In this document: positions 203 through 18,485 of the stretch, one piece after another | Layout of the letters: each line of letters starts with the position of its first letter | Position numbering within the stretch: position 1 is the stretch's first letter | NCBI RefSeq assembly: GCF_003841465.1 | Contig: NZ_REFZ01000008.1 | Location: forward strand, 1 to 64,000 | Direction of reading: 5' to 3' | Origin: Natrarchaeobius oligotrophus | Lineage (GTDB): Archaea > Halobacteriota > Halobacteria > Halobacteriales > Natrialbaceae | DNA: 64,000 nucleotides | Notes under the pieces: model-generated | Database searches by the model: none | What the model was told of the DNA's origin: nothing | Seen by the model: the letters and a program-made list of their open reading frames with translations, nothing else | Made by a program: the position numbers and the translations under genes

Positions 203-1027
203 ATGACACCCTCTATGAATCCAACTAGGGAACAATTCTCAGGTCATCCAACAATTCGATTCGGTAGCGGTACCGAACCGCTTGTCATTCTTCCCGGACT
301 TAGCGACGCGTTAGAGGGGGGTGACACGCCGAAAATAACACGGGTCCTTCTCGAACGGTACTACATGCGACCATTTGCTGACGACTTTGACGTGTATGTC
401 GTCAAGCGTCCACGTGACATGCCGGACGGCATCACGACCCGAGAGATGGCAAGTAATTATGGGGATGTTCTCGCCGAGATCGGGCCTGCGAATGTGCTCG
501 GACTCTCAATGGGCGGATTGATTGCACAGTATCTAGGCATCAAGCACGCTGAACACGTGCGAAACCTCGTTATCGCAATTGCCGGTCCGCAATTGAGCGA
601 ACGTGGCCGCGAAATCGTATCCGGCTGGCTCGCCGCCGGACGTGACGGGGATTGGGCAGACGTGTACGTTGGAAGCATCGAAACGACGTACTCCGCCGGG
701 ACGAAACGCGCTGCGTACGGTGCACTACTCAAAATTCCGGGGATTATCAAAGAACCACCGTACCCGAATGATTTCATCACCTCGGCACAGGCCTGTCTCG
801 ACCATGACGCCACAGGCGAACTCGATATGACCGAACCGGAAACACTCGTCATCGGCGGTTCCGAAGATCAACTTTTCGATGCTGAGGACCTCCAGGCGAT
901 GGGAACAACAATCCCGAACGCACGGACACATCTCATCGAAAACACTGGGCATGGTGCCTTCGAGGAACGCAGACGCGAATTCTGCTCCACGATCACGTCG
1001 TTCCTCTTTGAACAACGGTCAGCGTAA
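203..1027 (+). CDS. Alpha/beta hydrolase
   Basis: A 274-residue alpha/beta-hydrolase-fold protein. The strand before the nucleophile elbow and the elbow itself are visible as VLGLSMGGLI (about residues 98-107), giving Ser as nucleophile. A late strand LVIGGSEDQLFD supplies the probable acid, and ENTGHGAFEE near residue 250 supplies the catalytic His. Length is normal for single-domain esterases or C-C hydrolases. There is no signal peptide, so it should be cytoplasmic. An alternative start is the Met at residue 5. The substrate cannot be read from sequence. It precedes the methyltransferase/SAM-synthetase cluster but is separated from it by about 270 bases, so a shared pathway is only a possibility. 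Confidence 0.85.
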   Translation: MTPSMNPTREQFSGHPTIRFGSGTEPLVILPGLSDALEGGDTPKITRVLLERYYMRPFADDFDVYVVKRPRDMPDGITTREMASNYGDVLAEIGPANVLGLSMGGLIAQYLGIKHAEHVRNLVIAIAGPQLSERGREIVSGWLAAGRDGDWADVYVGSIETTYSAGTKRAAYGALLKIPGIIKEPPYPNDFITSAQACLDHDATGELDMTEPETLVIGGSEDQLFDAEDLQAMGTTIPNARTHLIENTGHGAFEERRREFCSTITSFLFEQRSA

Positions 1028-1296
1028 CCTGTCCCGTAGCGAGTACGTTCGGTATATGTGTGACGTCACAGTACTACTGATTACCTGACTCAACCCGAAT
1101 TGGTCGCAACAAACGAAATCGAGTGCTGAACTCATCCTCTGTGTCGATCACTCCGTTTATAACAAATATCCGCCATTTCATTCAGTGTGTGCTGAACTCA
1201 GGGCGCGAATGTCGCACGAGATCCAGGTGAATTTGTGAAGGTGACGATCGCTCAGCACAACCCCTCTACACATCAAGTCACCTAATACGTTCATCT
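1028..1296. other. Intergenic region with repeated TGCTGAACTCA motif
   Basis: No gene is seen. TGCTGAACTCATC occurs at 1124-1136 and TGCTGAACTCA again at 1190-1200 in the same orientation. A near copy overlaps the transposase start (around 148-158), and the exact reverse complement GATGAGTTCAGCA lies at 16761-16773. These may be insertion-sequence ends or scars. Confidence 0.4.
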
Positions 1297-2115
1297 TCAT
1301 ATCGATGACTTTCGAAATGACACCAGCCAAAACTTCCCGTTTGCGATCTTCATACTACTAATGTCGTGCATATTATCAGGAACAAGATCGATTGGTGGGT
1401 CGGCAACGCGGGTTGCACGCTCAGGAATCAGTCGTACAACAATCTGCGGTAAGTTGATGAATTCAGAAGTCTCGTCAGCAATATATAATTTAGCGTCAGG
1501 CTTTGCAACCCGAATCATCTCGTCGATAGCCGCTTGTTTGTCGTTGAAAAAATTGAATCCGCCGACATGAAACACTACATCGAAGCGTTCGCTTTGGAAC
1601 GGGAGCGCCTCGGCGTTTCCCTGCACAAGCCCAACATCGATGTCCCACTTTCTTAGGTTCTTCTGGCATTTGTTCAACATGCCGTAGGAGATGTCGTTTC
1701 CAAAAAAGTGCCCGTCCATACCATGTCGAGCTAAATTTCGGAATTGTTGTCCCGTTCCGACAGCCGTCTCAAGCACACGATCACCCGATTCTATCGTTAT
1801 GATTTCGGCGAGCTCATCTAACCACTGCTGTAATCTCGACAATGGAAGGGCATACATCAAATCATATGCGTAACTAAACCAATCGTAGCCGATTTGTTGT
1901 TTCCGATTGTTCCCGAAAACATCGTCTTTCCGGAGAATAACCGGTATTCCGTTCCTGATTTCGAACCGCTCTTCTGTAATCGGATCGATCATCACATCAT
2001 CTTCAAGAATTAGCGAATTTCCAGTAGTCGGATTCCGCAATAGAGTGAGTATTTCACGTTGTTTGGTTTGAACGGTCTCGGGGTCACCCTCACTAACCAT
2101 GCCAATTTGTACCAT
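1297..2115 (-). CDS. SAM-dependent class I methyltransferase with Trm112-like N-terminal domain
   Basis: A 272-residue protein. Residues about 25-65 (LLRNPTTGN ... FEIRNGIPVILR) resemble the Trm112-like module found before many UbiE-type methyltransferases, but the usual zinc cysteines are absent. The Rossmann methyltransferase follows: motif I DRVLETAVGTG, motif II GNDISYGML, then VQGNAEALPF and FDVVFHVGG. It would transfer a methyl group from SAM to an unidentified small molecule or lipid. It is clearly paralogous to the divergent gene at 2200-3009, sharing ISYGML.KCQKN and GLVQGNAE. Translation could also start at an internal Met at 2100. The 84-base gap to its paralogue suggests a shared promoter region. 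Confidence 0.85.
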   Translation of the reverse strand: MVQIGMVSEGDPETVQTKQREILTLLRNPTTGNSLILEDDVMIDPITEERFEIRNGIPVILRKDDVFGNNRKQQIGYDWFSYAYDLMYALPLSRLQQWLDELAEIITIESGDRVLETAVGTGQQFRNLARHGMDGHFFGNDISYGMLNKCQKNLRKWDIDVGLVQGNAEALPFQSERFDVVFHVGGFNFFNDKQAAIDEMIRVAKPDAKLYIADETSEFINLPQIVVRLIPERATRVADPPIDLVPDNMHDISSMKIANGKFWLVSFRKSSI

Positions 2116-2167
2116 TCGAGAACGATTAGCTGTTGTGTAGATTCCTGCTTCTTTTGAACCCGACCTA

Positions 2168-2174
2168 GGCTTTA
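2168..2174 (+). promoter_or_regulatory. TATA-like box for the 2200 methyltransferase
   Basis: GGCTTTAC is centred about 28 bases upstream of the ATG at 2200, the spacing expected of a haloarchaeal TATA element serving a leaderless or nearly leaderless transcript. It lies in the short divergent intergenic region 2116-2199. Confidence 0.4.
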
Positions 2175-2199
2175 CCTCCTACAATCCGTAATCCATTGT

Positions 2200-3009
2200 A
2201 TGGGGACAAGCGAAGAACAACGAACCAAACAGGCTGAACAGCTTCGGTTACTCCGGAATCCGTACACAGGCAATACAGTATTTCGTGACGATGGCGTATT
2301 GATTGATTCGGAGTCGGGAGAGCAGTTTCCGATCCGTGATGGAATTCCAGTGCTGCTCCGTGAGGAGGACGTGGTCGGTATCAACCGACGGATGCAATGG
2401 ACGTTCGATTTACAGAGTTATATCTATGATTTGTCGAGATCAAGGATACTGTCCGGTCTCGAAGCCGGGCGATCGGAATACTCCGAACAGTTGGATGTGA
2501 ACCCCGGGGACCGTGTACTCGAAAGCTGTGTGGGGACGGGACTGCAGCTTCGAAACCTCCAGGAAAACGGAAAGGAAGCTGACTACTTTGGAGTGGATAT
2601 CTCGTATGGAATGTTGAAAAAATGCCAGAAGAACGCTCGAAAATGGAGGATGAACGTCGGACTGGTTCAGGGGAATGCAGAACAACTTCCCTATGCGGAC
2701 GATACCTTTGATGTTGTGTTCGAGTTCGGAGGGATTCTGTTTGTGCCAGAAAAAGTTGAGGCCACGCTTCAGGAAATGATTCGGGTCACCAAACCTAGTG
2801 GACAAGTTGCGTTTGTGACGCCGACAGCAAAATTACTCGACGCTAACCTCTTTGTGAAAGCCGGCCTAAAGTGGTTTGGGATACCAGCGGAACCCGGGCC
2901 CTGGGAATCCGCATTGGAGGTCGTCCCAAACATTGCAACGAACAAATTCCAGAAGGATATCTGGAACGGAAAACTGAGCGTGATCTCGTTTCAAAAACCA
3001 GAAAAATGA
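2200..3009 (+). CDS. SAM-dependent class I methyltransferase, paralogue of the divergent gene
   Basis: A 269-residue methyltransferase. It has a cysteine-less Trm112-like N-terminal module (LLRNPYTGN ... FPIRDGIPVLLR), then SAM-binding motif I DRVLESCVGTG, acidic motif II GVDISYGMLKKC, GLVQGNAEQLPY and FDVVFEFGG. By eye it is close to the 1297-2115 protein through the Rossmann core, while the C-terminal thirds differ (ETSEFINLPQI against TPTAKLLDANLF), which suggests different substrates. Its stop codon overlaps the start of the SAM synthetase gene (ATGA at 3006-3009), so enzyme and cofactor supply are translationally coupled. The substrate is unknown. Confidence 0.87.
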   Translation: MGTSEEQRTKQAEQLRLLRNPYTGNTVFRDDGVLIDSESGEQFPIRDGIPVLLREEDVVGINRRMQWTFDLQSYIYDLSRSRILSGLEAGRSEYSEQLDVNPGDRVLESCVGTGLQLRNLQENGKEADYFGVDISYGMLKKCQKNARKWRMNVGLVQGNAEQLPYADDTFDVVFEFGGILFVPEKVEATLQEMIRVTKPSGQVAFVTPTAKLLDANLFVKAGLKWFGIPAEPGPWESALEVVPNIATNKFQKDIWNGKLSVISFQKPEK

Positions 3010-4175
3010 GTGATAGAATGAACACCTTCCCTGTGACCATCTCATCTCTTGCTGGCGATCCAATCGAGGACCGTCGGGCTGAGTTCGTCGAGCGCAAGGG
3101 CCCCGGTCACCCTGACACTATCTGTGATGGAATCGCTGAAGCCGTATCGCGGGAACTCTGTCGAGAATACCAGGCAGAATTTGACCGCGTCCTTCACCAC
3201 AACACGGATAGCGTCCTGTTGATTGCAGGTGACTCGACGCCTGAGTTCGGCGGCGGATCACTCGATTCGCCCATCCGGATCATTCTCGGCGGGCAGGCGA
3301 CGGCGGAAGTCGAAGACACGACAATTCCGATCAACGAGATCGCCGAACAGGCGGCCCGCGGGTATATAGAGACGCATTTCGAGGACTTACCCAGCGGCTA
3401 CGTCGATATCTGGCCGCATCTGGGACCGACCTCCGTGGATCTCCAGGATCTGTTCGATCGCGGTGACGTGTTGGCGAACGACACGAGCATCGCCGTTGGC
3501 TATGCGCCGCTCTCGGAGACCGAAGCGATCGTCAAAACGCTAGAGCCGAGAATCTGGCAGGAGATTGACGCTGCAGGCAAGGACGTCAAGCTAATGGGCG
3601 TCCGAACGAATGATCAACTCCACCTCATTATTGCAACCGCGATCCGTTCGTCACAGGTTTCATCGGTTGAGGAGTACCTCGATGTGAAGGCACAGATTCG
3701 AGACCTCGCACTGGGGCATGCACGAAACCACACGAATCGAGAGGTCCGTGTCGATGTGAACACTGCCGATAATCCGGATGAGGGAATCGTGTACATCACC
3801 GAAACGGGGCTATCCGCGGAGGACGGGGACGATGGTGGCGTCGGTCGCGGAAACCGGGTTACGGGATTGATCACGCCCCATCGCCACATGAGTATGGAGG
3901 CGACGGCTGGAAAGAATCCGATCTCACACGTCGGGAAACTCTACAACGTGCTCGCAAAACGGACGGCGGAACGAATCGCCACCGAAACCAGTGCGGATTT
4001 TGCGAGCGTTCACATGGTCTCCGAGATCGGCATGCCGATCGCAGCCCCCGACGCTGTTGATGTCGAAACAACAACCTCAGATCACAGCGAGGTAGAGGCC
4101 ATCGTGCGATCTGAGGCGGGGAGGATCGATGAGATCACGGAGGGTATCATCGCAGGCGATGTTGAGCTGTTCTGA
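3006..4175 (+). CDS. mat: S-adenosylmethionine synthetase, archaeal type
   Basis: Makes SAM from methionine and ATP in the cytoplasm. The 389-residue product is the usual size of the archaeal MAT family. It shows the family signature GPGHPDTICDGIAEAVSREL near residues 28-47, HHNTDSVLL, GGGSLDSPIRIILGGQAT, and the glycine-rich GGVGRGNRVTGLITPHRHMS toward the C-terminus. The frame is open further upstream, but the ATG at 3006, overlapping the methyltransferase stop, gives the normal N-terminus. Placement directly behind a methyltransferase, with two more methyltransferases within 2 kb, suggests a dedicated or additional copy rather than the housekeeping gene; whether another copy exists lies outside this window. 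Confidence 0.95.
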   Translation: MSDRMNTFPVTISSLAGDPIEDRRAEFVERKGPGHPDTICDGIAEAVSRELCREYQAEFDRVLHHNTDSVLLIAGDSTPEFGGGSLDSPIRIILGGQATAEVEDTTIPINEIAEQAARGYIETHFEDLPSGYVDIWPHLGPTSVDLQDLFDRGDVLANDTSIAVGYAPLSETEAIVKTLEPRIWQEIDAAGKDVKLMGVRTNDQLHLIIATAIRSSQVSSVEEYLDVKAQIRDLALGHARNHTNREVRVDVNTADNPDEGIVYITETGLSAEDGDDGGVGRGNRVTGLITPHRHMSMEATAGKNPISHVGKLYNVLAKRTAERIATETSADFASVHMVSEIGMPIAAPDAVDVETTTSDHSEVEAIVRSEAGRIDEITEGIIAGDVELF

Positions 4176-4480
4176 TGCTCCCTAATACTGGTCGGTATCT
4201 GGACAACTCCTGATTATCGTCTCATCGTCATCGAGTTAGTGCTGGATATGTGCGTTACATTGTATCCTGCACGATCCTTCCAACAACCTCTGAACCCGGT
4301 GGGTAGTTCTCACTTGTCAGAATCGGTTACCGAGGGCAACCTCTGGACAATATGTATCTTTGATTTAATCAGTTCGCCGTCCGTATCTCTGCTATCGGTT
4401 TCTGCCAGCAGAGGAGACTATTTTGGTATTGGTGAATGTGGGGTATTTTTTCCACGTAATGCTTGCAACCACGAGTGTGC
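4176..4480. other. Intergenic region, no gene recognised
   Basis: About 300 bases between two converging genes. Short open frames here have non-haloarchaeal composition and no recognisable motif. A T-run (GTATTTTTTCC, about 4443-4453) may help end transcription of the SAM synthetase gene. Confidence 0.35.
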
Positions 4481-4975
4481 TCAGCGCAGGAAGAACCATC
4501 GTGGCACCTCCTCGCGGTACTTTTCATACTCCTCGCCGTGCTTTTCGAGCAGGTGCGGTTCCTCGTATCCAATGGCCCGGTTGTGAAACCCGATCCACAT
4601 ACCCGCTCCCCACCAGAGGATCGCAACCGACCGACGTAGAAGCGCTTGGCCGAGGATCACCAGGAGGACCCCAATGTACATCGGGTTGCGGGAATGGGCG
4701 TAGATCCCGCCGGTGACGAGATGTTTGGGCTCGTCAGTTGGCGATGGCGTCCCCTCCCCTTCGGAGACAAATTGGAAAGACGTGTATACATAGAGCAGGA
4801 TGCCTGAGACGAGAGACAGAATTCCAAGGCCACGGGCCAGATGCTCGTTGAGTGGAAGTTCGGGGTGCTTTCGCCACCTTGCGAGTAACTGCGGGACGGC
4901 CACTGCAACGATGCCAGGGACAAGGATGGTGAAGACAATAGTCTTCAGATAGGTCGAAATTGACCCCATGCACAT
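4481..4975 (-). CDS. Isoprenylcysteine carboxyl methyltransferase-like membrane protein
   Basis: A 164-residue integral membrane methyltransferase of the ICMT/phospholipid-methyltransferase type. Hydrophobic segments lie at about residues 9-30 and 46-66. The conserved SAM-binding signature follows as GGIYAHSRNPMYIG (about residues 88-101), another membrane segment, and the C-terminal EEPHLLEKHGEEYEKYREEV. In this family the signature binds SAM at the membrane face and methylates lipids, isoprenoids or thiols. The start may be the Met two residues downstream (4969). It is the fourth SAM-related gene in 4 kb and converges on the SAM synthetase. The substrate is unknown. Confidence 0.88.
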   Translation of the reverse strand: MCMGSISTYLKTIVFTILVPGIVAVAVPQLLARWRKHPELPLNEHLARGLGILSLVSGILLYVYTSFQFVSEGEGTPSPTDEPKHLVTGGIYAHSRNPMYIGVLLVILGQALLRRSVAILWWGAGMWIGFHNRAIGYEEPHLLEKHGEEYEKYREEVPRWFFLR

Positions 4976-5102
4976 GTAAACGGATGAAAATGCTATAAAG
5001 GTTCGAGTGGTGGGGTTTCTTTGCTATCATCACAACAATGCACGTCATACTCGGTCGATCCATCTGCAGCGGGTTGTCGGAAACCTGGAGAGTGGCCATA
5101 CA

Positions 5103-5615
5103 ATGAAGGGTGGAAAGGACGTACTTCACAGCATTCTGAAGAGGAAATTGTGGGAATATTTCGGTCGCTTCACACTGCTCCATATCCTTTTGTATGTCGT
5201 GTTCGCGTCGATTTTCGTAACGCTCGCTCCATTGATCCCCGTCGAACATCGCGTCGCGTTCGATGTCGTCGAACCGTATTCCTTAGAGACGGCGTACATC
5301 CTTGGCCAGCTACTCCGTGGGGGTGTACTGGCGCTCATCCTGTATCCGTTCTACGACGTGTTCGTTCGAAACGAACGCGGTTGGATAGTGCTGTTCGGCG
5401 CGTTGTGGGGGATCGCCGTAATCGGGACGGTCGAACCGCAACCTGGATCGATCGAAGGCCTGATCTATACCCTGACGACCGCCACCGAACACACAATTAT
5501 CCTCACGATTAGTGCGATCCAAGTGTTCGTGTTCTCGGTGGTATTGGTTCACTGGGAACGACGAAATCGGGGAGTCAGCTCATATTCTCAAGGAGGTGAG
5601 ACCGATGATGGATGA
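5103..5615 (+). CDS. Hypothetical four-helix membrane protein (paralogue A)
   Basis: A 170-residue protein with about four predicted membrane segments: LLHILLYVVFASIFVTLA, LLRGGVLALILYPFYDVF, GWIVLFGALWGIAVIG and a C-terminal TISAIQVFVFSVVLVHW. The frame is open further upstream, but the ATG at 5103 gives a natural N-terminus. It is homologous to the next gene, with shared features RFT.LH, GQ..RG..LA..LYPFY..FV and RSGW/RGW..LFG. The family is not recognised. The C-terminus overlaps the next gene's start, so the two are co-translated and may form a heteromer. Confidence 0.72.
   Translation: MKGGKDVLHSILKRKLWEYFGRFTLLHILLYVVFASIFVTLAPLIPVEHRVAFDVVEPYSLETAYILGQLLRGGVLALILYPFYDVFVRNERGWIVLFGALWGIAVIGTVEPQPGSIEGLIYTLTTATEHTIILTISAIQVFVFSVVLVHWERRNRGVSSYSQGGETDDG
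5591..5599 (+). promoter_or_regulatory. Strong Shine-Dalgarno sequence inside the upstream gene
   Basis: AGGAGGTGA is complementary to the archaeal 16S rRNA 3' end and sits 5 to 8 bases before two candidate ATGs. Such a strong site is uncommon in this mostly leaderless genome, and it fixes the start of the second membrane protein. Confidence 0.7.
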
Positions 5616-6090
5616 TGGTCTCCGGGGTTTCGTCATTCGGTTTACCGTGCTCCACGTCGTCACGTACTGGGTCGTGGGAATGATGTTTTTTCAGTTACAA
5701 CCAGGGTACGAAGAGGCGCTGGCAGTTATCGAAACGTTCGAGCACTGGCGAGACCTGGAGGATATCACCATGGTGGCAGCCGTCTTTTTCGGTCAGTTCG
5801 TTCGCGGTGCCTTGCTTGCTGTCTTCTTGTATCCGTTTTACACGCGGTTCGTACACGCGCGATCTGGGTGGCTGTTGCTCTTTGGTCTCCTCTATGGATT
5901 GACATTCCTCGGATCACCAGTCTTCTTCCCCGAAACCGTCCAGGTGATACTGGACGGATCACTGCGCGACCTTCTCCGCTCTCTCGAAATCGGAGTTCCT
6001 GAAGTCACCGTGCAGATGCTGGTCTTCTCCTGGCTCCTCTGGCGGTGGGAACGCAGAGTGATTTCGAACCACTGTGAGATGGACTCGTGA
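5605..6090 (+). CDS. Hypothetical four-helix membrane protein (paralogue B)
   Basis: A 161-residue membrane protein resembling its upstream neighbour: FTVLHVVTYWVVGMMFF, FGQFVRGALLAVFLYPFY, SGWLLLFGLLYGLTFLG and a final VQMLVFSWLLWRWERR. A near-perfect Shine-Dalgarno (AGGAGGTGA, 5591-5599) precedes the ATGs at 5605 and 5608, fixing the start and showing leadered, coupled translation within the upstream gene's last codons. The short basic tail after the final helix is shared with the paralogue. No family is recognised. Confidence 0.73.
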   Translation: MMDDGLRGFVIRFTVLHVVTYWVVGMMFFQLQPGYEEALAVIETFEHWRDLEDITMVAAVFFGQFVRGALLAVFLYPFYTRFVHARSGWLLLFGLLYGLTFLGSPVFFPETVQVILDGSLRDLLRSLEIGVPEVTVQMLVFSWLLWRWERRVISNHCEMDS

Positions 6091-6513: not shown

Positions 6514-7398
6514 ATGCTCACGAACTGGATTCGAACACATCGCCTCGTTTCGTTTTTTCTTCTTACCTACGCAATCTCCTGGAGCCTCAACGGTGTCGTC
6601 ATCGCTCTTCAAATGGAACCGTCGTGGACACGATGGATCCTCAGTGGCTTTCTCAGTGCTTCCGGACCAGCGATCGCCGCCGCTATCGTGGTTCACGTCA
6701 GTGACGACGATCTTCGAGTGTGGGCGCGTGGCATCGTTCACTGGCGCGTTCATCCGAAGTGGTACGTGGCCGCGATCGGAATCCCTGCTGCGATTGCGCT
6801 GAGTGCCGGAGCCATAGCCGCGTTACTCGGTGGCCCGATCGATTTCGGTGCGTTCTCGCCTAACCTACTCACGCTCGCGTTCGGGATTCTCCTGGGGACG
6901 TTCATCGGCGGCGGCCAAGAAGAAATCGGCTGGCGTGGGTTCGCCCAGCCAGAACTCCAGCAGCGCTACGGTGGGCTCGTCGCGGCCATCGTGATCGGCG
7001 TCCTCTGGGGTGGCTGGCACCTTCCGTTGTTTTTCGATCCGACAGCTCCACATGCCCAATGGCCGCTCGCGTCACAGCTTTCGTATTTCGTTGGCATCAT
7101 TGGGTTCTCGGTACTTCTCGCCTGGGTCTACAACGGCTCGGGTGGAAGCATCCTGCTGGTCATGATCATGCACGGGAGTGAGAACGCCCTGGGTGCGCTC
7201 GTCCCACTCGACGTGGATCTCGTCATCGTAGACGGCGTCCCGGACTGGGGACTGCTCGTGTCACTCAACGTCTCTCACGTAGCGGTGACATGGGTGTTCG
7301 CGCTGGTTGTACTCATGGTCGTTGGAACCGGATTACGTGCTACGAGACTGTCAGCAGCCGGTGCTACCGGTACAACACGGCAGGACGAACGAGTGTGA
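6514..7398 (+). CDS. CPBP-family intramembrane metalloprotease
   Basis: A 294-residue polytopic membrane protein with about eight hydrophobic segments. It carries the CPBP/Abi (CAAX protease, Rce1-like) motifs: EEIGWRGF (about residues 136-143), a helix with GGWHLPLF (about 167-174) and the late HGSENA (about 225-230). The Glu-Glu-Arg and His residues form the family's active site. Bacterial and archaeal members act in regulated membrane proteolysis, bacteriocin immunity or prenyl-protein processing; the target here is unknown. It ends 15 bases before the convergent hydrolase gene. Confidence 0.9.
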   Translation: MLTNWIRTHRLVSFFLLTYAISWSLNGVVIALQMEPSWTRWILSGFLSASGPAIAAAIVVHVSDDDLRVWARGIVHWRVHPKWYVAAIGIPAAIALSAGAIAALLGGPIDFGAFSPNLLTLAFGILLGTFIGGGQEEIGWRGFAQPELQQRYGGLVAAIVIGVLWGGWHLPLFFDPTAPHAQWPLASQLSYFVGIIGFSVLLAWVYNGSGGSILLVMIMHGSENALGALVPLDVDLVIVDGVPDWGLLVSLNVSHVAVTWVFALVVLMVVGTGLRATRLSAAGATGTTRQDERV

Positions 7399-9302: not shown

Positions 9303-10211
9303 CTAGTCGCTGGCGATCGGGATGCAACACACCGGAACGTCGGCGTGGCGGACCACGTTCTCCGTGACACTGCCGAGGAGTTGCCGCTCGATTCCGGAGC
9401 GACCGTGCGTTCCCATGACGATGAGATCGATTTCGTTGTCCTCGGCGTAGTCCAGGATGACGCGCACGGCCGGGCCGTTCGCGACCGTTCCGGTCACGCT
9501 GATCCCGGCCGCTCTCGCTCGTTCCCGAATCGTCTCGAGCGCGGTACGCCCCTCCTCTTTTAGTCCAGTCAGTATCGCGCTCGGCTCTGCACCCCCCGTG
9601 AATCGACTCTTGTCGGCCGAAAAGAGGACGTGACACATTGCGTCGTACGCGTTGGCGAGGCCGATCCCCCATTCGACAGCGACTGTCGCGCCCTCACTGC
9701 CGTCCGTCGGCAGCAGGACATTCTCGACCGCGTCTGGCGTGAGTGCCGAGTCGCTCGCTTCCGGCGGCACCGCGAGCACCGGAACCGTCACCGTGCGGAG
9801 CACGTGTTCGGTAACGCTTCCGAGCAGGACCCGGTCGAGGCCGGTCCACCCTTTCGTACCCATTGTGATGGCGTCGATATCCGCCTCCTCAGCGTACTCT
9901 CCGATAACTCGATGGGGTGTTCCGCGTTCGATCGCCGTCGTGATTTCGAGTTCCGGGTGACGATCGTGAACCACGTCTGCGACGGTCTCGACGGCCGACT
10001 CCGCTTCGGCTTCGATCGACGCTTTCTGCTCGTCGTCAATATCCGATGCAGACGCCGCGTCGAGTTCCGCTTCGTCGACGACCGAGAGCACGTGGACGTC
10101 GGCCCCGAACGAGCCAGCCAGGTCGATGCCCCGTTCCGCGCCGACGAGCGCGCCATCGCTGCCGTCGGTCGGAATCAGTATCGTCTCGAGCAGGTCGTTC
10201 CTCGTTGTCAT
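9303..10211 (-). CDS. Tandem universal stress protein (two UspA domains)
   Basis: A 302-residue cytoplasmic protein made of two UspA domains. Domain 1 starts ETILIPTDGSDGA and ends with ATP-loop GTKGWTGLDRVLLGS; domain 2 starts ENVLLPTDGSEGA and ends GTHGRSGIERQLLGS. Both keep the G-2x-G-9x-G-S nucleotide-binding pattern, so ATP or another adenine nucleotide should bind. Tandem Usps usually act as intramolecular dimers in stress or energy sensing. It is the first of nine Usp genes in the next 20 kb. It is transcribed away from the single-domain Usp-like gene at 10414. Confidence 0.93.
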   Translation of the reverse strand: MTTRNDLLETILIPTDGSDGALVGAERGIDLAGSFGADVHVLSVVDEAELDAASASDIDDEQKASIEAEAESAVETVADVVHDRHPELEITTAIERGTPHRVIGEYAEEADIDAITMGTKGWTGLDRVLLGSVTEHVLRTVTVPVLAVPPEASDSALTPDAVENVLLPTDGSEGATVAVEWGIGLANAYDAMCHVLFSADKSRFTGGAEPSAILTGLKEEGRTALETIRERARAAGISVTGTVANGPAVRVILDYAEDNEIDLIVMGTHGRSGIERQLLGSVTENVVRHADVPVCCIPIASD

Positions 10212-10413
10212 TGACGAGAGTACGCCTTCAGACCGGATAGTAATAGGCGGGACCGGTACGTTCGACTGACCATTTCGGTCGCCGCAGGGTTCGTCCTGGT
10301 GGCCCGATCGCGGACTCCCGACTCACCACCGATTGTCCCGAGCGGTCGAAGCCGGGTGTGCCGGCTCCGACCGTCCCCACGCAGTTATTCGTCGTGGAGT
10401 GGAAACGACCCAT

Positions 10414-10914
10414 ATGACATTCGCTGTGCCGTTCGACGGAACGGAACTGGCGGAAGCCGCCCTCGTCAGGGCCGTCGAGTACGGGAACGCGCTCGACGAG
10501 CCCGTCGCCGCGGTAACCGTGGTCCCTGAACGAAAACGATACGCGAGAGAGAAGGGCTGGATCGACGATGAAGACGAGTCGTTCGACGTCGAGGCGGTCA
10601 TCGAACGACTCCGCGACCGAGTACACGCGTTGGCGCCATCGGCGACCTTCGAGTACGAACGCATCCGCGAGTTTCCCCCCGAAGAGCGGATCGCCGACCT
10701 CGTCGAACGGCTGGCCCTGCGACACGACCCGAGCGTCGTGTTCCTCGGAAGCGACAACGTGGGCCGCGTCGTCACGCCGCTGACGAGCGTCGGCGTCCAC
10801 GTCGCCGCAGAGCGATCCTACGACGTGTTCATTGTTCGCCAGCTGTCGCCTCCCGGAGTCGACGCGGTGGAGGCCCACACGGAGTTCTATCGAGAGGATG
10901 AGGCGACGGGGTGA
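10414..10914 (+). CDS. Divergent Usp-like protein
   Basis: A 166-residue protein beginning MTFAVPFDGTELAEAALV, which matches the first beta-alpha unit of the Usp fold. The C-terminal ATP loop is missing: the equivalent region reads FLGSDNVGRVVTPLTSV, so it probably does not bind ATP in the classical way. The ATG at 10414 lies about 80 bases into a longer open frame and gives a normal Usp N-terminus. It is divergent from the tandem Usp gene at 9303-10211. Confidence 0.75.
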   Translation: MTFAVPFDGTELAEAALVRAVEYGNALDEPVAAVTVVPERKRYAREKGWIDDEDESFDVEAVIERLRDRVHALAPSATFEYERIREFPPEERIADLVERLALRHDPSVVFLGSDNVGRVVTPLTSVGVHVAAERSYDVFIVRQLSPPGVDAVEAHTEFYREDEATG

Positions 10915-11180
10915 TCGAACCTCGGAACACCGACGCTCCCCAACGTACCGGAACCGTCTGGGTTCTCGACCGGTGCGCCGCCTCCGTTTCGCAGCTGGTG
11001 TCGTCGTCGTCGGGGCTCGGATACACCGTCGTGTCGAAACCGGACGTGCATACCTCGGCAAATATGCTGCTCACTCCGTGTTCGCTCCCCGTTACCAACG
11101 AATCGATCGAATAGTCCGCGGTTCGATCAGAGCGTCTTCTCGTAGACGTACTCCTCGACTCCCGTTTTCAGGTCGCTTTC

Positions 11181-11633
11181 CTAGGTTCCGACCCGCTCGA
11201 AGCCGGCCGATTCGTAGAACGAGACGCCAACCTCGTTGTCCGCGAGGACAGCGAGGTACAGCCGATCGTACGCTTCCTCAAGGCGACCCTCGACGCGCTC
11301 GAGCAGCGCCGTACCGCTTCCGTTTCCCCACCGGTCGGGACAAACGTAGATCCGGTTCAGCGACGCGACCGCGGGCCGGTCACGGTGTGGACCGGCGTGT
11401 GCGAAGCCGACGAGTTCGCCCGCGTCTTCGGCGACCAGGAAGACAGCGTCTTCGCGGTCACGAGCCTCGGCGATCGACGCCCTGAGTTCGTCGATCGCGT
11501 ACCAGCGGTCGATCGTCTCCGCGACGGTCTCGCTCCCGAGGATCGAATCGTGGGCGGCGTGCCAGCTCTCGCGAGCGATTTCGCGGACCGCCGTCGCGTC
11601 GTCCGAGACTGCAGATCGAACGTTCGGAGACAC
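11181..11633 (-). CDS. GNAT acetyltransferase, truncated by an in-frame amber codon
   Basis: The first 150 residues form a GNAT N-acetyltransferase: VRSAVSDDATAVREIARESW, then beta-4 FLVAEDAGELVGFAH, the acetyl-CoA loop region VCPDRWGNGSGTALLE and the C-terminal VSFYESAGFERVGT. A GTG at 11633 is the likely start; the frame is open upstream but that part is not protein-like. TAG at 11183-11181 ends the frame, yet the next 17 codons in the same frame read ESDLKTGVEEYVYEKTL and then TGA (11129-11127), exactly the last beta strand expected of this family. It is either a recent nonsense mutation or a tolerated truncation. Substrate unknown. Confidence 0.75.
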   Translation of the reverse strand: MSPNVRSAVSDDATAVREIARESWHAAHDSILGSETVAETIDRWYAIDELRASIAEARDREDAVFLVAEDAGELVGFAHAGPHRDRPAVASLNRIYVCPDRWGNGSGTALLERVEGRLEEAYDRLYLAVLADNEVGVSFYESAGFERVGT

Positions 11634-11899
11634 ATCGCTCCGTACGTCGACTCGACAGTTAATCGCTTCTCCGTTCGAACGAGGGGTGGTTTTTGAACAG
11701 TAGGCGAAATGTGGGACGGATCCGTTTGACGATACTGGAACCGCCGCCCGGCCATCCAGCCCGAAGTCTCGAAGTGATCGACATATTCGGCACGTCACGA
11801 ACAGGCGCCGCTTCCGAATTGCCGCTGTTACTGGAGTATTTCGTTTCTATCGACGGAACAGAACTGGGGCTTTATTCGGTTCGTTCGCCTAACGTGTGT

Positions 11900-12361
11900 A
11901 TGGGCGAACAGGAACGTGCGGCCGCCGATCGAGCGGTGGACGACCTGGAGGCGTCGGTGGTGGATTCCCGGAGAGTCCCCGACGCCGAACGACGCCGGGT
12001 GTTGATTGCGGTTGGTGGTTCAGGCGCCGTCTTCCTCGCCGGCTGTTTGAACGAGGACGACGCGGCAACGTACGAGGTCGTGTTCGTCGACGGAGACGAG
12101 ACGTTTGACGTCGACGTCGAGGAAGACGAAGAGCTGTTGTATCCGGCGCTCGACGCCGGCGTAGATATCCCGTACACCTGTGAAGCGGGGACGCGCGGCC
12201 AGTGTACGGCGAAGTACGACGGCAATGCCGACGAGGTGGTCACACACGAGGGCAACGAGTACCTCGACGACGATCAGATCGCGGACGGCTGGGTGCTGAC
12301 CTGCGTCGCATACGCCAGAGCCGATTCCGAACTCGAGGTCGCCCATCCGGACGACGCCTGA
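11900..12361 (+). CDS. Tat-exported 2Fe-2S ferredoxin lipoprotein with one cluster Cys replaced
   Basis: A 153-residue protein from the ATG at 11900. It has a charged 33-residue leader, then a twin-arginine signal and lipobox (RRRVLIAVGGSGAVFLAGC), predicting Tat export and lipid anchoring outside the cell. The mature part is a plant-type 2Fe-2S ferredoxin fold: YEVVFVDGDETFDVDV, LLYPALDAGVDIPYTC, and the fourth ligand in GWVLTC. The ligand loop reads C-EAGT-R-GQ-C where the family has C-x4-C-x2-C; codon CGC at the second position is one base from TGC. The cluster may be absent or altered. An electron-transfer role is therefore doubtful. Confidence 0.8.
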   Translation: MGEQERAAADRAVDDLEASVVDSRRVPDAERRRVLIAVGGSGAVFLAGCLNEDDAATYEVVFVDGDETFDVDVEEDEELLYPALDAGVDIPYTCEAGTRGQCTAKYDGNADEVVTHEGNEYLDDDQIADGWVLTCVAYARADSELEVAHPDDA

Positions 12362-13038
12362 CTAATCGGGTGGTCTCGATTCCCGAGTCGCCGCGATAGG
12401 AAACGTTGTCCACGTTCGTCCTGTCTGCCGAGCGGACGTGGCGACACAACTCTGCGGGACCGGGACGGCTAGCGGAGGCACTTCGAGTTCCCCTGACTCA
12501 TTCCCACATAGCCTTTGTCAGCGCGCTTCGGGTTCTGGCCACTCGTCCAAGCGCACAAAACGCCTTACGTCGAAACTGTAGGAGTAATGGTTCGAGGATC
12601 TGTTGGATCCTCTCTACGTCACTGTCACTTCGATAAGCTGGTACGGTGAGCCCACCGGGATCGTCCGTGTCGAGATTTCGGCCATCCATCTGCGCCCTTC
12701 AATTTCGGTATCGCTGGTTCGCTCCCGCCGAGGTTTTCGAGGGAGCCCACCGCCTGGTTGGGTGTGGAGCCACGAAACCGACGCGTCTCGCGCAAGATCC
12801 ATTGCGAAACGATCGTTCGATCGGCGGGATCGCCTTGAAGGCGGCTCGTTACTTTCGCATCCGCGGCGTGAGTTCGGGTTGTGACATCGGGGACCTCTCA
12901 CTGGTTCATCGCCTGTCGAGGAGATAACCGCATAGCCTGCCGAACCGCACCGAGGTCCGCCGCACGATATTCGGATTCCAGCCGAAACCTTCGTACGGAC
13001 GACCCCGATTCGCGACGGTGGGACCGTTATCGTTCCAT
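12362..13038. other. Long intergenic region without recognisable genes
   Basis: About 680 bases. Several short overlapping open frames on both strands have mixed composition and no motif or acceptable start. A piece on the minus strand around 12560-12690 (DSDVERIQQILEPLLL) is faintly protein-like and could be a decayed gene. Nothing else is seen. Confidence 0.3.
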
Positions 13039-13557
13039 CTACTCGTTTGGTTCGTCACCCGGGTCGTCGGCATCGTCGGCGTCGCCCTTGGTTGTCGTTG
13101 CGGGTTGCGGGCCACCGCCGGTCTGGGCTTCCTGCGCCTCGCCCCACCCGCCGGCGTCGACTACCTCGAAGAGCTTTCGCCAGTTCTCGTCGTCCTGACT
13201 CTCCGGGAGCTGGTCACGGAGCTGCTGGAAGTCTGACGGCGGAACCTGGGTTTCCACGAAATCGACGATGATTCGGGCGTGGTAGGCGGCTTCGGAGGCG
13301 TCGACGCCCTCGCCTTCAATCTCGCTGACGCGCTCGATGAACTCCCGCCAGTCGAATCGCTGCCCGTGTTCGCGGACCGCCCCGGTCATGTACCACTTGA
13401 TTTCGAGCGGCAGGTTAGCGGCGAAGTCCTCTGCGTTCCCCTCGGGGATTCGCTGGCCCAGGGTCATGAGGGTCGCCCGGATCGCCCGAACCGTCCGGCC
13501 GGTGTCGGGCAGTTCGAGTCGGTGCTGGATCTCGCCGGTGAACTCGTCGAAATTCAT
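13039..13557 (-). CDS. DUF2267 protein
   Basis: A 172-residue protein starting MNFDEFTGEIQHRLELP, typical of DUF2267, an all-helical family found in haloarchaea and actinobacteria, often near stress genes. Core features are RATLMTLGQRIPEGNAEDFAANLPLEIKWYM cut by a charged HGQRFDW segment and YHARIIVDFVETQVPP. A Pro/Asp-rich acidic tail follows (residues 145-172). It resembles the DUF2267 gene at 26568-26963 (both have QHRLEL, LPMEI/LPLEI, HGQRFD, YHA). The biochemical function is unknown; a general stress role is suggested by context. Confidence 0.88.
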   Translation of the reverse strand: MNFDEFTGEIQHRLELPDTGRTVRAIRATLMTLGQRIPEGNAEDFAANLPLEIKWYMTGAVREHGQRFDWREFIERVSEIEGEGVDASEAAYHARIIVDFVETQVPPSDFQQLRDQLPESQDDENWRKLFEVVDAGGWGEAQEAQTGGGPQPATTTKGDADDADDPGDEPNE

Positions 13558-13917
13558 CGTACTAGATGGCGCGACGACCAACACCGTCAATGCACGTGGC
13601 ATCTGCGGGCGAGCGAGATTGTCGCCGCGACGATACATACCGTCCGGAGAACCGATAGACTGCCCCCACGAGAGTATTATATGGCGATCGGTCACGTGCG
13701 ATCGTTCCAAGGGCGGATCCCAGGCGGCTGGTCAACTCGTTCGTCCGATCGGGGGCACGGATCGGACCGAAATACCGGACGGTTGCAAGATACCGGGAAT
13801 GACCGAAACGAGAATCACCGTCGGGCGCGCAGGTACGACCGTCTAACAGCACCTGCGACGATACCGTCCTGGCGGCACCGAACCACGAAACCCTGCCACG
13901 AAAACCCACCACAAATC

Positions 13918-15135
13918 ATGAATATTGCAGATATCGTTTCGGAAGAGTACGTCGAATTCGAACCGGATACGCGCGTTTCGAAGCTCGTCGGTACGTTCGA
14001 GGATCCCGATGTCGACGGCGTCGTCGTCCGGGGTGAGGAGTACGAGGGAGTCGTCACCCGCCGACAGCTCGCTAGCTCGCATCGCCAGCCCGACGAGAAG
14101 GTTGGTTCGTTAGTCTGGCACGTCCCGCGACTCGCGCCCGACGAGGACGTTCGGAACGTCGCACAGCTCATGATCGACGGCGACTCGCAGCTGTTGCCAG
14201 TCTTCGAAGAGCAGGAACTGCTCGGCGTCGTCACCGCCGACGCGATCCTACGGAAGGTCGAACCGTTCCTCGACGCGGCAACCGTCGCCGAGGCGTACTC
14301 GTCGGATCTCGTCACGCTCGATCCCGACTCGACGATTGGCGACGCGGTCCACAAGTTCCGGGAGGAACGGATCACGCACTTGCCGGTCGTCGAGGACGAT
14401 TCCGCTGTCGGCATCTTGAGTCTCTACGACGTGAGCGGCCTCACCGTCCGAGCCGAGGTACAGAGCCAAGGCGGGGATCCGGGCGGAACGGATCCGTTCG
14501 GGGGTGAAATCTCCGACAGCAGCGGCCGAACGCGAGCTGGCGGCTTCGGCGCCCGGGAGGGAGAACTCGCCCGAATGCTCGATCTGCCGGTTCGGGACGT
14601 CATGGTCTCGCCGGTGCGGACGATCGCTCCCGACGAGACCCTCGACGTCGCTGTCGGGGAGATGTTTGCCGTCGACGCATCGTCGCTGGTCGTCACCGAC
14701 GACGGCTCTCCCCGCGGCATCGTCACGAAGACCGACGTCCTCGACTCGCTCACGTGGGAGGCCGGCGGCAACCGGGGCGTCCAGATCTACGGCGTCGACC
14801 TGATCGATGACGCGACCTACGACCAGATCGTGGCGATGATCGAGAAGTTCGACGACCGGGACCACGGGATGAACGTGTTGGACGCGAAGGTCCACCTCCA
14901 CGAGCACGACGAGAAACGCCGCGGGACACCGCTGCTGCTCGCTCGCATCCGGCTGCACACGGATCGCGGACTATACATCGCCTCTGGGGAGGGTTACGGC
15001 GCGAGCCACGCGATGAACGAAGCGCGCGAGGTACTCGAACGGCAGATCCGCGACAAGAAGACTCACGCCCGTTCCATGAAACCACCGGGCGAGGAATTCT
15101 GGGAGAAACGCTTCGGCTGGCTGTTAGAGGAGTGA
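13918..15135 (+). CDS. Four-CBS-domain protein with HPF/RaiA-like C-terminal domain
   Basis: A 405-residue protein from the ATG at 13918; the frame stays open far upstream but that part is not protein-like. CBS repeats occupy about residues 1-60, 60-120, 120-180 and 220-280 (for example ELLGVVTADAILRKVE, LPVVEDDSAVGILSLYDV, SLVVTDDGSPRGIVTKTDV). The last ~115 residues (YDQIVAMIEKFDD ... ARIRLHTDRGLYIAS ... NEAREVLERQI) resemble ribosome-hibernation factor HPF/RaiA. CBS domains bind adenine nucleotides or SAM, so this looks like an energy-sensing ribosome-silencing protein. The HPF assignment is by pattern and needs a profile search. Confidence 0.85.
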   Translation: MNIADIVSEEYVEFEPDTRVSKLVGTFEDPDVDGVVVRGEEYEGVVTRRQLASSHRQPDEKVGSLVWHVPRLAPDEDVRNVAQLMIDGDSQLLPVFEEQELLGVVTADAILRKVEPFLDAATVAEAYSSDLVTLDPDSTIGDAVHKFREERITHLPVVEDDSAVGILSLYDVSGLTVRAEVQSQGGDPGGTDPFGGEISDSSGRTRAGGFGAREGELARMLDLPVRDVMVSPVRTIAPDETLDVAVGEMFAVDASSLVVTDDGSPRGIVTKTDVLDSLTWEAGGNRGVQIYGVDLIDDATYDQIVAMIEKFDDRDHGMNVLDAKVHLHEHDEKRRGTPLLLARIRLHTDRGLYIASGEGYGASHAMNEAREVLERQIRDKKTHARSMKPPGEEFWEKRFGWLLEE

Positions 15136-15473
15136 TCGCAAGTCAGTGGGCGAGGCGGCGGTATCGCCCCTCGCGTTCGATCGGTATCGGTGTCGTTAGC
15201 CAGCGACGGGCCGTGAGACTCCCCCACCGACCGGTCGTGATCGGGATTGGTTCGTCCAGTCTCGGGAATTAACGAGGGACCCGTCTCGTGGGTGGTACCA
15301 GTCTCGGCGGTCCGGCACACGTCCCCGAGGGTAGCCACCAGTCCCAATTCTCAACGTTTGGAACCGACCCCAACGTTCGAAGAACCGGAAGAACGGGAAG
15401 TGACGCCATCACCGATCCCGTCGGATGGGAAGGAGAACACGCCTATACACCCGGGGACATGGAATGATTCTAC
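15136..15473. other. Intergenic region, nothing recognised
   Basis: About 340 bases between two rightward genes. No gene, RNA or clear repeat is seen; a purine-rich GGGAAGGAGAA tract lies about 50 bases before the next ATG. Confidence 0.3.
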
Positions 15474-15833
15474 ATGGACACGACAGTACAGCTTCGAGAC
15501 ACCACGCTCGTCGAAAAGGTCGTCCTGCTCGGCTGCGTCTGGCGCTCGGTCGAGGACCGAACGCCGGCCAGAGCAGACGAAATCCGATCCGCCTGCAACG
15601 ATCGACTCGACGAGCTCACCGGCCGGCTCTCCGAGGCCGACGTCTGTCGGGCGCTGAACGAACTCGCGGCGAGCGATCTCCTCGAGGCACGTACGCCGGA
15701 CGAGCGATCGCCGGCCGGAAAAGGACGACCGACGTACGAACTCCGTGTCGACGTCGACACAGTGTTGACGACGCTCGCTGCGGACGGGGACCTCGAGCCG
15801 CTCGTTAAGGAGGTCGATCGGATACGGGCTTGA
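15474..15833 (+). CDS. Winged-helix transcriptional regulator
   Basis: A 119-residue protein with a winged-helix layout: helices VEKVVLLGCVWRSVED, RADEIRSACNDRLDEL, recognition-helix region SEADVCRALNELAASDLLEAR, a wing with GKGRPTYEL, then a short acidic C-terminal helix. The AGKGRP.YEL wing is common in archaeal PadR/MarR-like regulators. It probably binds DNA as a dimer and may regulate the stress genes around it; no ligand domain is visible. Confidence 0.75.
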   Translation: MDTTVQLRDTTLVEKVVLLGCVWRSVEDRTPARADEIRSACNDRLDELTGRLSEADVCRALNELAASDLLEARTPDERSPAGKGRPTYELRVDVDTVLTTLAADGDLEPLVKEVDRIRA

Positions 15834-15890
15834 GGCTCTCGGATCGACGTCGGACCGATTCCGGGCCGGGATCGAGAGAGGGACGCGATG

Positions 15891-16103
15891 TCACTCGTCT
15901 GGGTCGTCTAGTTTCCGAACGAGGAGTTCTTCGACCGGTGCGTCGGACGCGTTGGTCTTCACGCTCTCGATACCCTTTTTCGCCGCGCGCTTGGAGCTGT
16001 ATCCCTGACTGCTGTCTGCGATGATGTTACCGCTGTCGTGGACGAGTCGGCAGCGCCACTGGCTTGCCCTGTCCTCGTAGAGTTCGAACGTCGCGGCGCT
16101 CAC
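15891..16103 (-). CDS. DUF1508 (YegP/HVO_2922-type) small protein
   Basis: A 70-residue protein from a GTG at 16103. The sequence SAATFELYEDRASQWRCRL, then SSQGYSSKRAAKKGIESVK, is the DUF1508 repeat (F.vy.D..g.wRwrl.a.NG.iia.s.eGY.sk..a..gI.svk). It is a cytoplasmic alpha/beta protein of unknown function that dimerises in solved homologues. A GTG start is needed because the upstream part of the frame is not protein-like. It sits among Usp genes, consistent with a stress role. Confidence 0.85.
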   Translation of the reverse strand: MSAATFELYEDRASQWRCRLVHDSGNIIADSSQGYSSKRAAKKGIESVKTNASDAPVEELLVRKLDDPDE

Positions 16104-16191
16104 ACTCCCAGGTCGGGAGCGACATCGATAAACTGTCGGTGAATCCGACGACCCCCATAACGTAATGCCGCCCGTTGGTGAAGCGTACACG

Positions 16192-16632
16192 ATGGCAGAG
16201 AAAGTTCTAGTTCCGACTGATGGCTCGCCGTTGTCGATTCGTGCGCTCCGACACGCACTGGAAAAGTTCCGCGATGCAGAGATCGTCGTCCTCCACGTCA
16301 TCGACGTCTTCGAGCCGTCGGATGGTGGCGGATTCGAGTCGCTCTACGAGCCGATGATCGGCTCGGAAGAGTGGGAGTCGATGGAACGGGAGGCGACGAG
16401 GGAACTGCTCGCCGAGGCAGAGGAGACCGCTGCGGAGTACGACCGGGAGATCGCAACCGACTCGGAGATCGGCGATCCACAGCGGATCATTCCGGATTAC
16501 GCCGAAGCGGAGTCGGTCGATCACGTCGTGATGGGCGTTCACGGTCGGGACGATCCGGGACGAACGCTGGTCGGACGGGTGGCAGAAACCGTCGTCTCTC
16601 GGTCGCCGGTTTCGGTTACCGTGATTCGCTGA
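16192..16632 (+). CDS. Universal stress protein (UspA domain)
   Basis: A 146-residue single-domain Usp starting MAEKVLVPTDGSPLSIRAL, the usual beta-1/loop. The C-terminal loop GVHGRDDPGRTLVGRVAETVV keeps the glycines but has Gly-Arg where ATP-binding members have Gly-Ser/Thr, so nucleotide binding may be weaker. The ATG at 16192 is chosen over one nine codons upstream because it gives the family N-terminus. It is divergent from the DUF1508 gene. Confidence 0.9.
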   Translation: MAEKVLVPTDGSPLSIRALRHALEKFRDAEIVVLHVIDVFEPSDGGGFESLYEPMIGSEEWESMEREATRELLAEAEETAAEYDREIATDSEIGDPQRIIPDYAEAESVDHVVMGVHGRDDPGRTLVGRVAETVVSRSPVSVTVIR

Positions 16633-16867
16633 CGGTGACGCCACCGTTCGACCGCGAACGCTCCGTGCCGGTCCGTTACTCATAGGGGTTCGCGTAATTC
16701 CACCGACGTTCCAATGAGGCAGATCACGGATACGTTGGAATCGGGGTGCAAGACTTAGAAGATGAGTTCAGCATTGCGTTTCCTCTCATTTCATATTTTT
16801 GACTATAAATCAAATATCCAATAGCACTGCGCGATGAACCCCACGCAATTCTATGATTTCGGAGAAA

Positions 16868-16876
16868 CTATATATG
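16868..16876 (+). promoter_or_regulatory. TATA box for the 16903 gene
   Basis: ACTATATATG is centred about 31 bases upstream of the ATG at 16903. It lies inside the longer open frame beginning at 16834 and supports the later ATG as the true, leaderless start. Confidence 0.5.
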
Positions 16877-16902
16877 ACGTTTTCCGAATTGCATACATCG
16901 AT

Positions 16903-17076
16903 ATGTCAAACCTCAGCGAAGGATGCAAAGATCATCTAGAGAAAGCTCTACAGTCGGACGAACCATCGAAGAAAGATTACCATATTCGGCAAGTGCTTCA
17001 GGCATGTGGTGTGGATGATCTTCCAGAAGGGTTTGAACCTGGACTCGAAACCGGTTCTAAAGAATCGAGCAAGTAG
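16903..17076 (+). CDS. Small haloarchaeal hypothetical protein
   Basis: A 57-residue acidic helical protein, MSNLSEGCKDHLEKALQS..EPSKKDYHIRQVLQACG, ending in a Lys/Ser tail. The frame is open from an ATG at 16834, but a TATA-like element lies within that extension and the extension is poorly protein-like. Residues 4-36 would form two helices. The DHLEKAL ... YHIRQVLQ pattern is familiar from short haloarchaeal proteins of unknown function; no role can be given. The surrounding DNA is AT-richer than the Usp genes on either side. Confidence 0.6.
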   Translation: MSNLSEGCKDHLEKALQSDEPSKKDYHIRQVLQACGVDDLPEGFEPGLETGSKESSK

Positions 17077-17242
17077 CACTGTGTACTGAACAGTTTGCAC
17101 TCGACATGCGTCCGATTCTGCTCCGTGCCACGTTCGTGCTGTATATTCATTACTTCAATATTATCAACATATAACGCTCACTGGAGCAAAGCGACGGATT
17201 GTCTTGCTAATTCCTGTCAATGCTTCATCGCGTACCGACCAC

Positions 17243-17662
17243 TCAGGCTGTCAATACCGGCCGGTCCGCGGTCCTGACGATCCGTTCGGCGACGCTGCCG
17301 ATCCGATCGGTCCGCGTATGGCCTTGTCCCTGATAGCCAATCACGATCAGGTCGGCGTCCAGTTCCGTCGCCTTCTCTCGAACTTCCTCCCAGGGACGTC
17401 CGTGGCAGACGTTCCAGGAACAGTTGATTCCGGCGTTGTCCGCCCGGTCGGCGATCTTCTCGAGCATCGCCGCGCCCTGATCCTCGAGGTTGTCGAGGAC
17501 GATTTCGGCGCTGCTCAGCGCGGGTTCGCCGTACCGGTGAGTCTCGACGCAGTACATTGCGTGGACGTCGGCGTCGTACTTGTCCGCGAGTTCCAGCGCG
17601 TGTTCGACTGCTCGGTTCGCTGGATCGCTGCCGTCCGTCGGGACGAGGATCGTGTCGTACAT
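17243..17662 (-). CDS. Universal stress protein (UspA domain)
   Basis: A 139-residue single-domain Usp. N-terminus MYDTILVPTDGSDPANRAVEH; C-terminal loop GYQGQGHTRTDRIGSVAERIV keeps the ATP-binding G..G...G-S pattern. The Cys residues in AMYCVETH and INCSWNVCHG are unusual for haloarchaeal Usps and could be redox-sensitive. It lies 300 bases from a divergent Usp gene at 17963. Confidence 0.93.
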   Translation of the reverse strand: MYDTILVPTDGSDPANRAVEHALELADKYDADVHAMYCVETHRYGEPALSSAEIVLDNLEDQGAAMLEKIADRADNAGINCSWNVCHGRPWEEVREKATELDADLIVIGYQGQGHTRTDRIGSVAERIVRTADRPVLTA

Positions 17663-17962
17663 CGGTGTGGACTATCCACGTCGAAAGCCGTGAAATAGCT
17701 CACACTGTTTCGAATGATATGACGGGAGAGTCGAGAGGGTAAAACGTCAGCCGCGTTCGGCCATTCGAGTAACTAAGGCCCACCGAAACGTCGGGCTACG
17801 GTTACGAACGCCAGGCCAGGATTTTGGCAGATTTCGCCCGGGTTCGTCAAACCGTGCGAGAGATACAGCGTAAATCGCTCTACCCGTCCTTCTCGGTCTC
17901 GACGGAAAGTGTAGAGTTGAGCACAGAGTATTTTGCTGGCTCGGTAGTAGGATAGGATACAT
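17663..17962. other. Divergent intergenic region between two Usp genes
   Basis: Three hundred bases holding the promoters of the flanking divergent Usp genes. No gene is seen. Confidence 0.35.
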
Positions 17963-18415
17963 ATGTACGATCGAATCCTGCTTCCCACAGATATGAGTCC
18001 CGGGGTCGACCGAGCGATCGATCATGCCATCGATGCCGCACAACGATACGATGCCGAGTTACACGTTCTCTACGTCGTTGATGCCGAGGCCTATAGCTCG
18101 TATCCCGGGGACGAGTATGTCCACGAATTCGAAGGGTTAGAGAAGGCGCTCGAACAGGCTGGCCAAGACGCAGTCGAGACGATCGCCAATCGTGCAGAAT
18201 CTGCAGGTATCGAGACAGAATCCGTGATCCGACACGGCGTCCCACACGCAGAGATTCTCGAGTATATGGATAAGAACGATATTGGGCTTACAGTCCTCGG
18301 CTCAAAAAATCGATCGGGAGAGTACAGACGGTTACTCGGTAGTGTGACTGAACGCGTTGCCAATATGGCGGAACGACCAATCACCATCGTCAAAACGCCG
18401 GTTCAAACAGCGTAG
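17963..18415 (+). CDS. Universal stress protein (UspA domain)
   Basis: A 150-residue single-domain Usp. N-terminus MYDRILLPTDMSPGVDRAIDH; an acidic YPGDEYVHEFEG insertion about residues 52-63; nucleotide loop GSKNRSGEYRRLLGSVTERV near the C-terminus with the G-S retained. The insertion between strand 2 and the long helix is similar in position to that of the 28704 gene. Probable ATP-binding stress sensor. Confidence 0.93.
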   Translation: MYDRILLPTDMSPGVDRAIDHAIDAAQRYDAELHVLYVVDAEAYSSYPGDEYVHEFEGLEKALEQAGQDAVETIANRAESAGIETESVIRHGVPHAEILEYMDKNDIGLTVLGSKNRSGEYRRLLGSVTERVANMAERPITIVKTPVQTA

Positions 18416-18485
18416 TTCGATCACTCCCTTTTCAAGATAGATCACGTTCCGATCTCTGCCCGCCACAAGAACTGTGCATTGATTG

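Follow-up and report, generated by a model that had tools for sequence, protein, structure and literature searches.

A probably mobile three-gene module of haloarchaea couples an accessory S-adenosylmethionine synthetase to two divergent methyltransferases

In the analysed stretch of DNA from Natrarchaeobius oligotrophus (64,000 nucleotides, positions 1 to 64,000 of contig NZ_REFZ01000008.1, hereafter called the window), two head-to-head methyltransferase genes, A and B, and a gene for an accessory S-adenosylmethionine (SAM) synthetase (MAT) form, as judged from sequence comparison, a unit of exactly three genes (Table 1). With a probability of about 60%, we regard this unit as a horizontally acquired module, with the accessory MAT as the source of SAM and with A and B as the enzymes that methylate a small molecule. 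The MAT would convert methionine and ATP to SAM, which A and B would spend on the small molecule, perhaps in two successive steps or on two related substrates. We infer that the SAM made by this MAT goes mainly to A and B, that the flux is large enough to call for such a supply and that the molecule methylated is a small one. This reading is favored by the presence of two MATs in the genome, by the same trio with its ATGA overlap in Natronosalvus hydrolyticus, by homology that stops at the cassette edges, by a low GC content, by an integrase-like gene and a tRNA-Thr, by a general pairing of accessory MATs with methyltransferases, by purifying selection and by nearest folds that act on small molecules.

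Table 1 Features of the cassette region in the window (positions of the window; start of A by conservation, the ORF being annotated from 2115)
Feature	Position	Strand	Basis
Cassette A-B-MAT	1272..4178	.	delimited by comparison with Natronosalvus hydrolyticus
Methyltransferase A, class I SAM-dependent	1297..2100	-	Pfam, start by conservation
Trm112-type module of A without zinc cysteines	1924..2058	-	hhalign
Divergent intergenic region between A and B	2101..2199	.	direct reading
Methyltransferase B, divergent paralogue of A	2200..3009	+	Pfam Methyltransf_25, 74.2 bits
Trm112-type module of B without zinc cysteines	2233..2367	+	aligned to the A module, part of the hhalign profile
Accessory SAM synthetase, archaeal type, second genome copy	3006..4175	+	PF01941, 434 bits
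Alpha/beta hydrolase, bystander, not part of the cassette	203..1027	+	distribution and blastn borders
PEMT/ICMT-like membrane methyltransferase, bystander, not part of the cassette	4481..4975	-	distribution and blastn borders

The first 9 kb of the window gave a single blastn match in N. hydrolyticus, in which 1272-4178 corresponds to L071:13038-15944 with 88.4% identity; nothing beyond these positions matched. The N. hydrolyticus contig stops about 280 bases past MAT, so that only the left cassette edge is fully testable there, and at the right edge the match of a genome that shares the MAT alone (G359) also ends at 4178. The head-to-head order of A and B is preserved in L071 and likewise in L073, a locus where A has decayed. 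A first-pass annotation had called the ORFs of A, B, MAT and a membrane methyltransferase, all four of which were found in place, and had described B as coupled to MAT by an ATGA overlap; this overlap (3006-3009) is also present in N. hydrolyticus (L003: B stop 6822, MAT start 6819). The 84 bases that it had given for the gap between A and B hold with the annotated start of A. However, both relatives (L071, L073) conserve as their start the Met found at residue 6 of A, so that A probably begins at 2100 rather than at 2115 and a gap of 99 bases is more likely.

The pathway proposed at that stage had also included an ICMT-like membrane enzyme and perhaps the flanking hydrolase. The membrane methyltransferase gene is indeed convergent with MAT, 305 bases apart, but its Pfam family is PEMT (PF04191, 46.9 bits, cut-off 25), with ICMT (PF04140) just below the cut-off (23.7 vs 24). 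Genomes that lack the cassette carry orthologues of it (66-72% identity), and N. oligotrophus itself has a second copy (63%); the matches in N. hydrolyticus reach just 33%, and G359 yielded none. For the hydrolase, N. hydrolyticus has no real counterpart although A-B-MAT is present there. Both genes were ruled out as cassette members by their distribution.

SAM synthetase is usually a single, essential housekeeping gene. N. oligotrophus encodes a housekeeping MAT at G000:C7:89867-91042 that is 46% identical to the window MAT. The proposal of a dedicated pathway had been tied to such a further gene in the genome and to the same gene order elsewhere, and both were found, as A-B-MAT recurs in another genus. 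Like other archaeal MATs, the window MAT is full length (PF01941 covers residues 10-384) with intact catalytic motifs; it differs in belonging to an accessory clade and in adjoining methyltransferases. Of 97 residues that do not vary among the housekeeping and methanogen-type enzymes used for comparison, it retains 84 and is therefore probably active. Its scores of 421 (NCBIfam equivalog, cut-off 553) and 420 (subfamily model, cut-off 435) place it as a divergent PF01941 member outside the equivalog.

A and B belong to the class I methyltransferases, A matching Pfam Methyltransf_25 with 69.7 bits and Methyltransf_11 with 69.1 bits, and the two are about 45% identical (44-45%), in line with their earlier description as divergent paralogues. 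A recent duplication as the origin of the twins was ruled out: A shares more with single genes of other Halobacteriota (63% with one of them) than with its twin (44%), and in the tree B falls outside the group that A forms with these relatives (support 0.85). The full-length relatives of A are single genes in four other Halobacteriota genomes, with no MAT adjoining, and the closest ones sit in non-haloarchaeal genomes, probably those of methanogens. B lacks 32 of 100 residues that are invariant in the A family, and therefore the substrates of the twins have probably diverged. Compared between the two genera, the dN/dS values are 0.22 for A, 0.16 for B and 0.09 for MAT, which indicates purifying selection on each gene. 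In structure comparison, the folds nearest to a predicted structure of A (pLDDT 78, pTM 0.80) are those of the small-molecule methyltransferases NovO, RebM, CouO and Coq5. A and B share the fold and the SAM-binding core with the UbiE/COQ5-like enzymes RebM, NovO and CouO, but the identity in the fold alignments is only 16-19%.

The N-termini of both proteins had been suspected to be a Trm112-type module devoid of its zinc cysteines, and profile comparison bore this out. Over 45 aligned N-terminal residues, A and B match a reference of 10 haloarchaeal Trm112 proteins with an hhalign probability of 95%, a score of 41.9 and an E-value of 2.8e-8, whereas the best of 30 column shuffles scored 12.7. 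The zinc ligand pattern [C/D]PX[C/D]...CX2C is replaced by RNPTTGN and DPITE in A and by RNPYTGN and DSESG in B. Pfam Trm112p did not match A or B, and a distant homologue (L100) reached 14.8 bits vs 22. Fusions of Trm112 with methyltransferases have been described in Euryarchaeota, where they form a third subfamily (PMC5372719); in these as in A and B, a class I methyltransferase carries a Trm112-type module at its N-terminus, but A and B differ by the lost zinc cysteines and by the pairing with a MAT. The zinc-less module probably braces the catalytic domain. Such a fused module bears on the mode of action of Trm112, pointing to the structural brace and not to the metal.

The A-B-MAT block is best read as horizontally acquired and moving between hosts. 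Its GC content is low (A 46%, B 50%, MAT 57%); the window as a whole has 62% and the housekeeping MAT 65%. About 3-4 kb ahead of the cassette in N. hydrolyticus lie a tRNA-Thr (L071:8843-8914) and an integrase-like gene (L071:9232-10368), whose product was judged by eye alone to resemble tyrosine recombinases. The cassette was not found in other genomes of the own genus. G359 has the MAT (86%) without A or B. There, a DUF7509 protein (L072:7931-8614) lies directly upstream of the accessory MAT, and a hydrogenase-like operon adjoins. In G029 only B is whole (93%), with no accessory MAT behind it, and A, still placed head-to-head with B, is reduced to a truncated remnant (L073:10228-10561) that carries in-frame stops and has lost an internal segment. 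A phage or plasmid origin was rejected, as only distant generic methyltransferases were found, and no relatives were present in viral contigs. A defence system was likewise rejected, the sole match being a generic methyltransferase match to mad2.

Beyond this cassette, accessory MATs, taken as those closer to the window MAT than any housekeeping copy (E 8e-115 or better, next best 1e-97), were present in 21 of the 391 haloarchaeal genomes sampled including the own genome (~5%), and in 11 of 125 Natrialbaceae genomes. A further 393 genomes of the phylum contained none beyond the haloarchaeal genomes already counted, and a literature search on accessory haloarchaeal MATs found nothing. These MATs form one clade (tree, support 0.84). 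With a methyltransferase profile derived from 33 other loci (6 from the own genome, 27 from other haloarchaea), a class I methyltransferase was detected within 2 kb at 16 of 20 accessory-MAT loci in comparison to 2 of 20 housekeeping-MAT loci (Fisher p 1.7e-5, shared ancestry ignored); seeds taken from the accessory-MAT loci themselves, a biased choice, gave the same 16/20. The partner family differs by MAT subclade: it is TPMT-like at all five loci of one subclade and DVU1556-like at nine of eleven in another, and A plus B accompany two of four MATs in the subclade of the window MAT. Among four additional loci, L173 and L174 fit the pairing pattern; the partner at L172 lies about 2.6 kb off, beyond a transposase-like gene, and the fourth locus, that of G654, showed no partner in view. 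What remains of the dedicated pathway proposed earlier is thus supported by the second MAT, the recurring gene order, the purifying selection and the methyltransferases that generally adjoin accessory MATs, but extends neither to the membrane gene nor to the hydrolase.

The TPMT-like methyltransferases (motif WDIGRPQ) stand head-to-head with the accessory MAT (L088:8886-9503, L089:8559-9176, L174:6360-6971 and similar) and resemble thiol methyltransferase 1 in the PDB (9h0d, E 9e-10) and the mycobacterial Rv0560c. The DVU1556-like family (L074:7183-7926, L080:8249-9019, L086:10330-10989 and similar) has 1vlm as its nearest PDB entry (E 4e-62) and a weak match to DVU_1556; a ZIP transporter and a proteasome-subunit-like protein sometimes lie alongside.

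Clusters that join a MAT, and also SAH hydrolase, to the glycine-betaine enzymes GSMT and SDMT are known from Methanohalophilus, Halorhodospira and Ectothiorhodospira, and their authors propose a local supply of SAM (PMC3176816, PMC7824335). A-B-MAT has the same architecture of paired methyltransferases clustered with a MAT, likewise in a halophile, the two enzymes of Methanohalophilus having 263 and 278 amino acids. In contrast to those clusters, A-B-MAT has neither SAH hydrolase nor MTHFR, A and B carry the Trm112-type module and the MAT belongs to a separate haloarchaeal clade. Betaine synthesis was ruled out, because B scored 23.5 bits against a cut-off of 550 in the NCBIfam model for sarcosine/dimethylglycine methyltransferase. 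As A and B thus do not qualify as betaine enzymes, A-B-MAT would work like GSMT-SDMT-MAT without being a member of that group.

Several observations stand against the module reading and feed other explanations. The MATs of G359 and G654 have no methyltransferase beside them (in G654, whose MAT is 64% identical, none was in view), B of G029 has no MAT, and the relatives of A have none either; thus neither A/B nor the MAT strictly needs the other. MAT copies and methyltransferases might pile up on mobile islands and adjoin by chance; in favor of this, no methyltransferase was found within 2 kb at G359 (L072), G654, L075, L081 and L087. We nevertheless consider such neutral co-occurrence quite unlikely in view of the difference between 16/20 and 2/20 loci, of three partner families of which two are kept across most of their MAT subclade, and of the conserved ATGA overlap and dN/dS values of 0.09-0.22. 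The model of A also matches RlmA(I) (1p91), an rRNA methyltransferase with a Trm112-like domain, over its full length. Together with the Trm112-type module, a match to the Haloferax volcanii Trm112 partner Hvo_0019 (6f5z) and the fusions known in Euryarchaeota (PMC5372719), this would fit A and B being RNA or translation-factor methyltransferases, either RlmA-like or Trm112-dependent with a fused activator, and the MAT a co-travelling spare. The zinc ligands are lost, however, small-molecule enzymes rank highest structurally, the patchy presence is unlike that of housekeeping RNA modification and an RNA modification enzyme would hardly need its own SAM supply, which makes this explanation unlikely.

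As a narrower version of the module reading, a sporadically selected detoxification module that moves between hosts and methylates a toxic metalloid, thiol or heterocycle is possible, if doubtful: A is weakly similar to arsenite methyltransferase models, the partners at sister loci resemble thiol or toxin methyltransferases (9h0d, Rv0560c) and the distribution is mobile and patchy, but the scores stay far under the ArsM cut-offs (57-65 bits vs 263-575) and no gene near the cassette was recognised as a resistance gene. Methylation of quinones or lipids by A and B, perhaps together with the membrane enzyme, was the substrate suggested by the first-pass annotation. It could draw on the Ubie_methyltran family (PF01209), which scored above its Pfam cut-off, and on methylmenaquinone, which has been reported in the haloalkaliphile Natronobacterium gregoryi (PMC5437934). 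This idea is not supported, because its lipid part rested on the membrane enzyme, a bystander, and because the closest homologues of A are single, non-haloarchaeal genes, probably of methanogens, which are probably quinone-less; A and B also remain under the cut-off of the MenG/UbiE family TIGR01934 (66.8 and 59.0 vs 158). We regard it as highly improbable.

Returning to the module with its own SAM supply, the presence of a separate MAT clade beside three methyltransferase families points to a methylation chemistry demanding enough for its own donor supply and suggests a recurring plug-in methylation unit in haloarchaea. In its widest form, which we put forward only tentatively, the accessory MAT clade would be a general haloarchaeal plug-in, a private SAM synthetase re-paired with different small-molecule methyltransferases for an undiscovered methylated metabolite made in bulk, such as an osmolyte or a volatile, e.g. 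a thioether or methyl halide. The accessory MAT could serve as bait for finding new methylated products of hypersaline archaea.

Farther along the window, the PEMT/ICMT-like gene and a gene for an Rce1-like CAAX protease (6514-7398) lie less than 2 kb apart. In eukaryotes, these are the two activities by which CAAX processing continues after prenylation. Two neighbouring paralogous ORFs that resemble membrane proteins (5007-6090), for which Pfam gave no match, end about 420 bases before the Rce1-like gene, and a long series of universal stress protein-like genes, recognised by eye, occupies 9303-29168.
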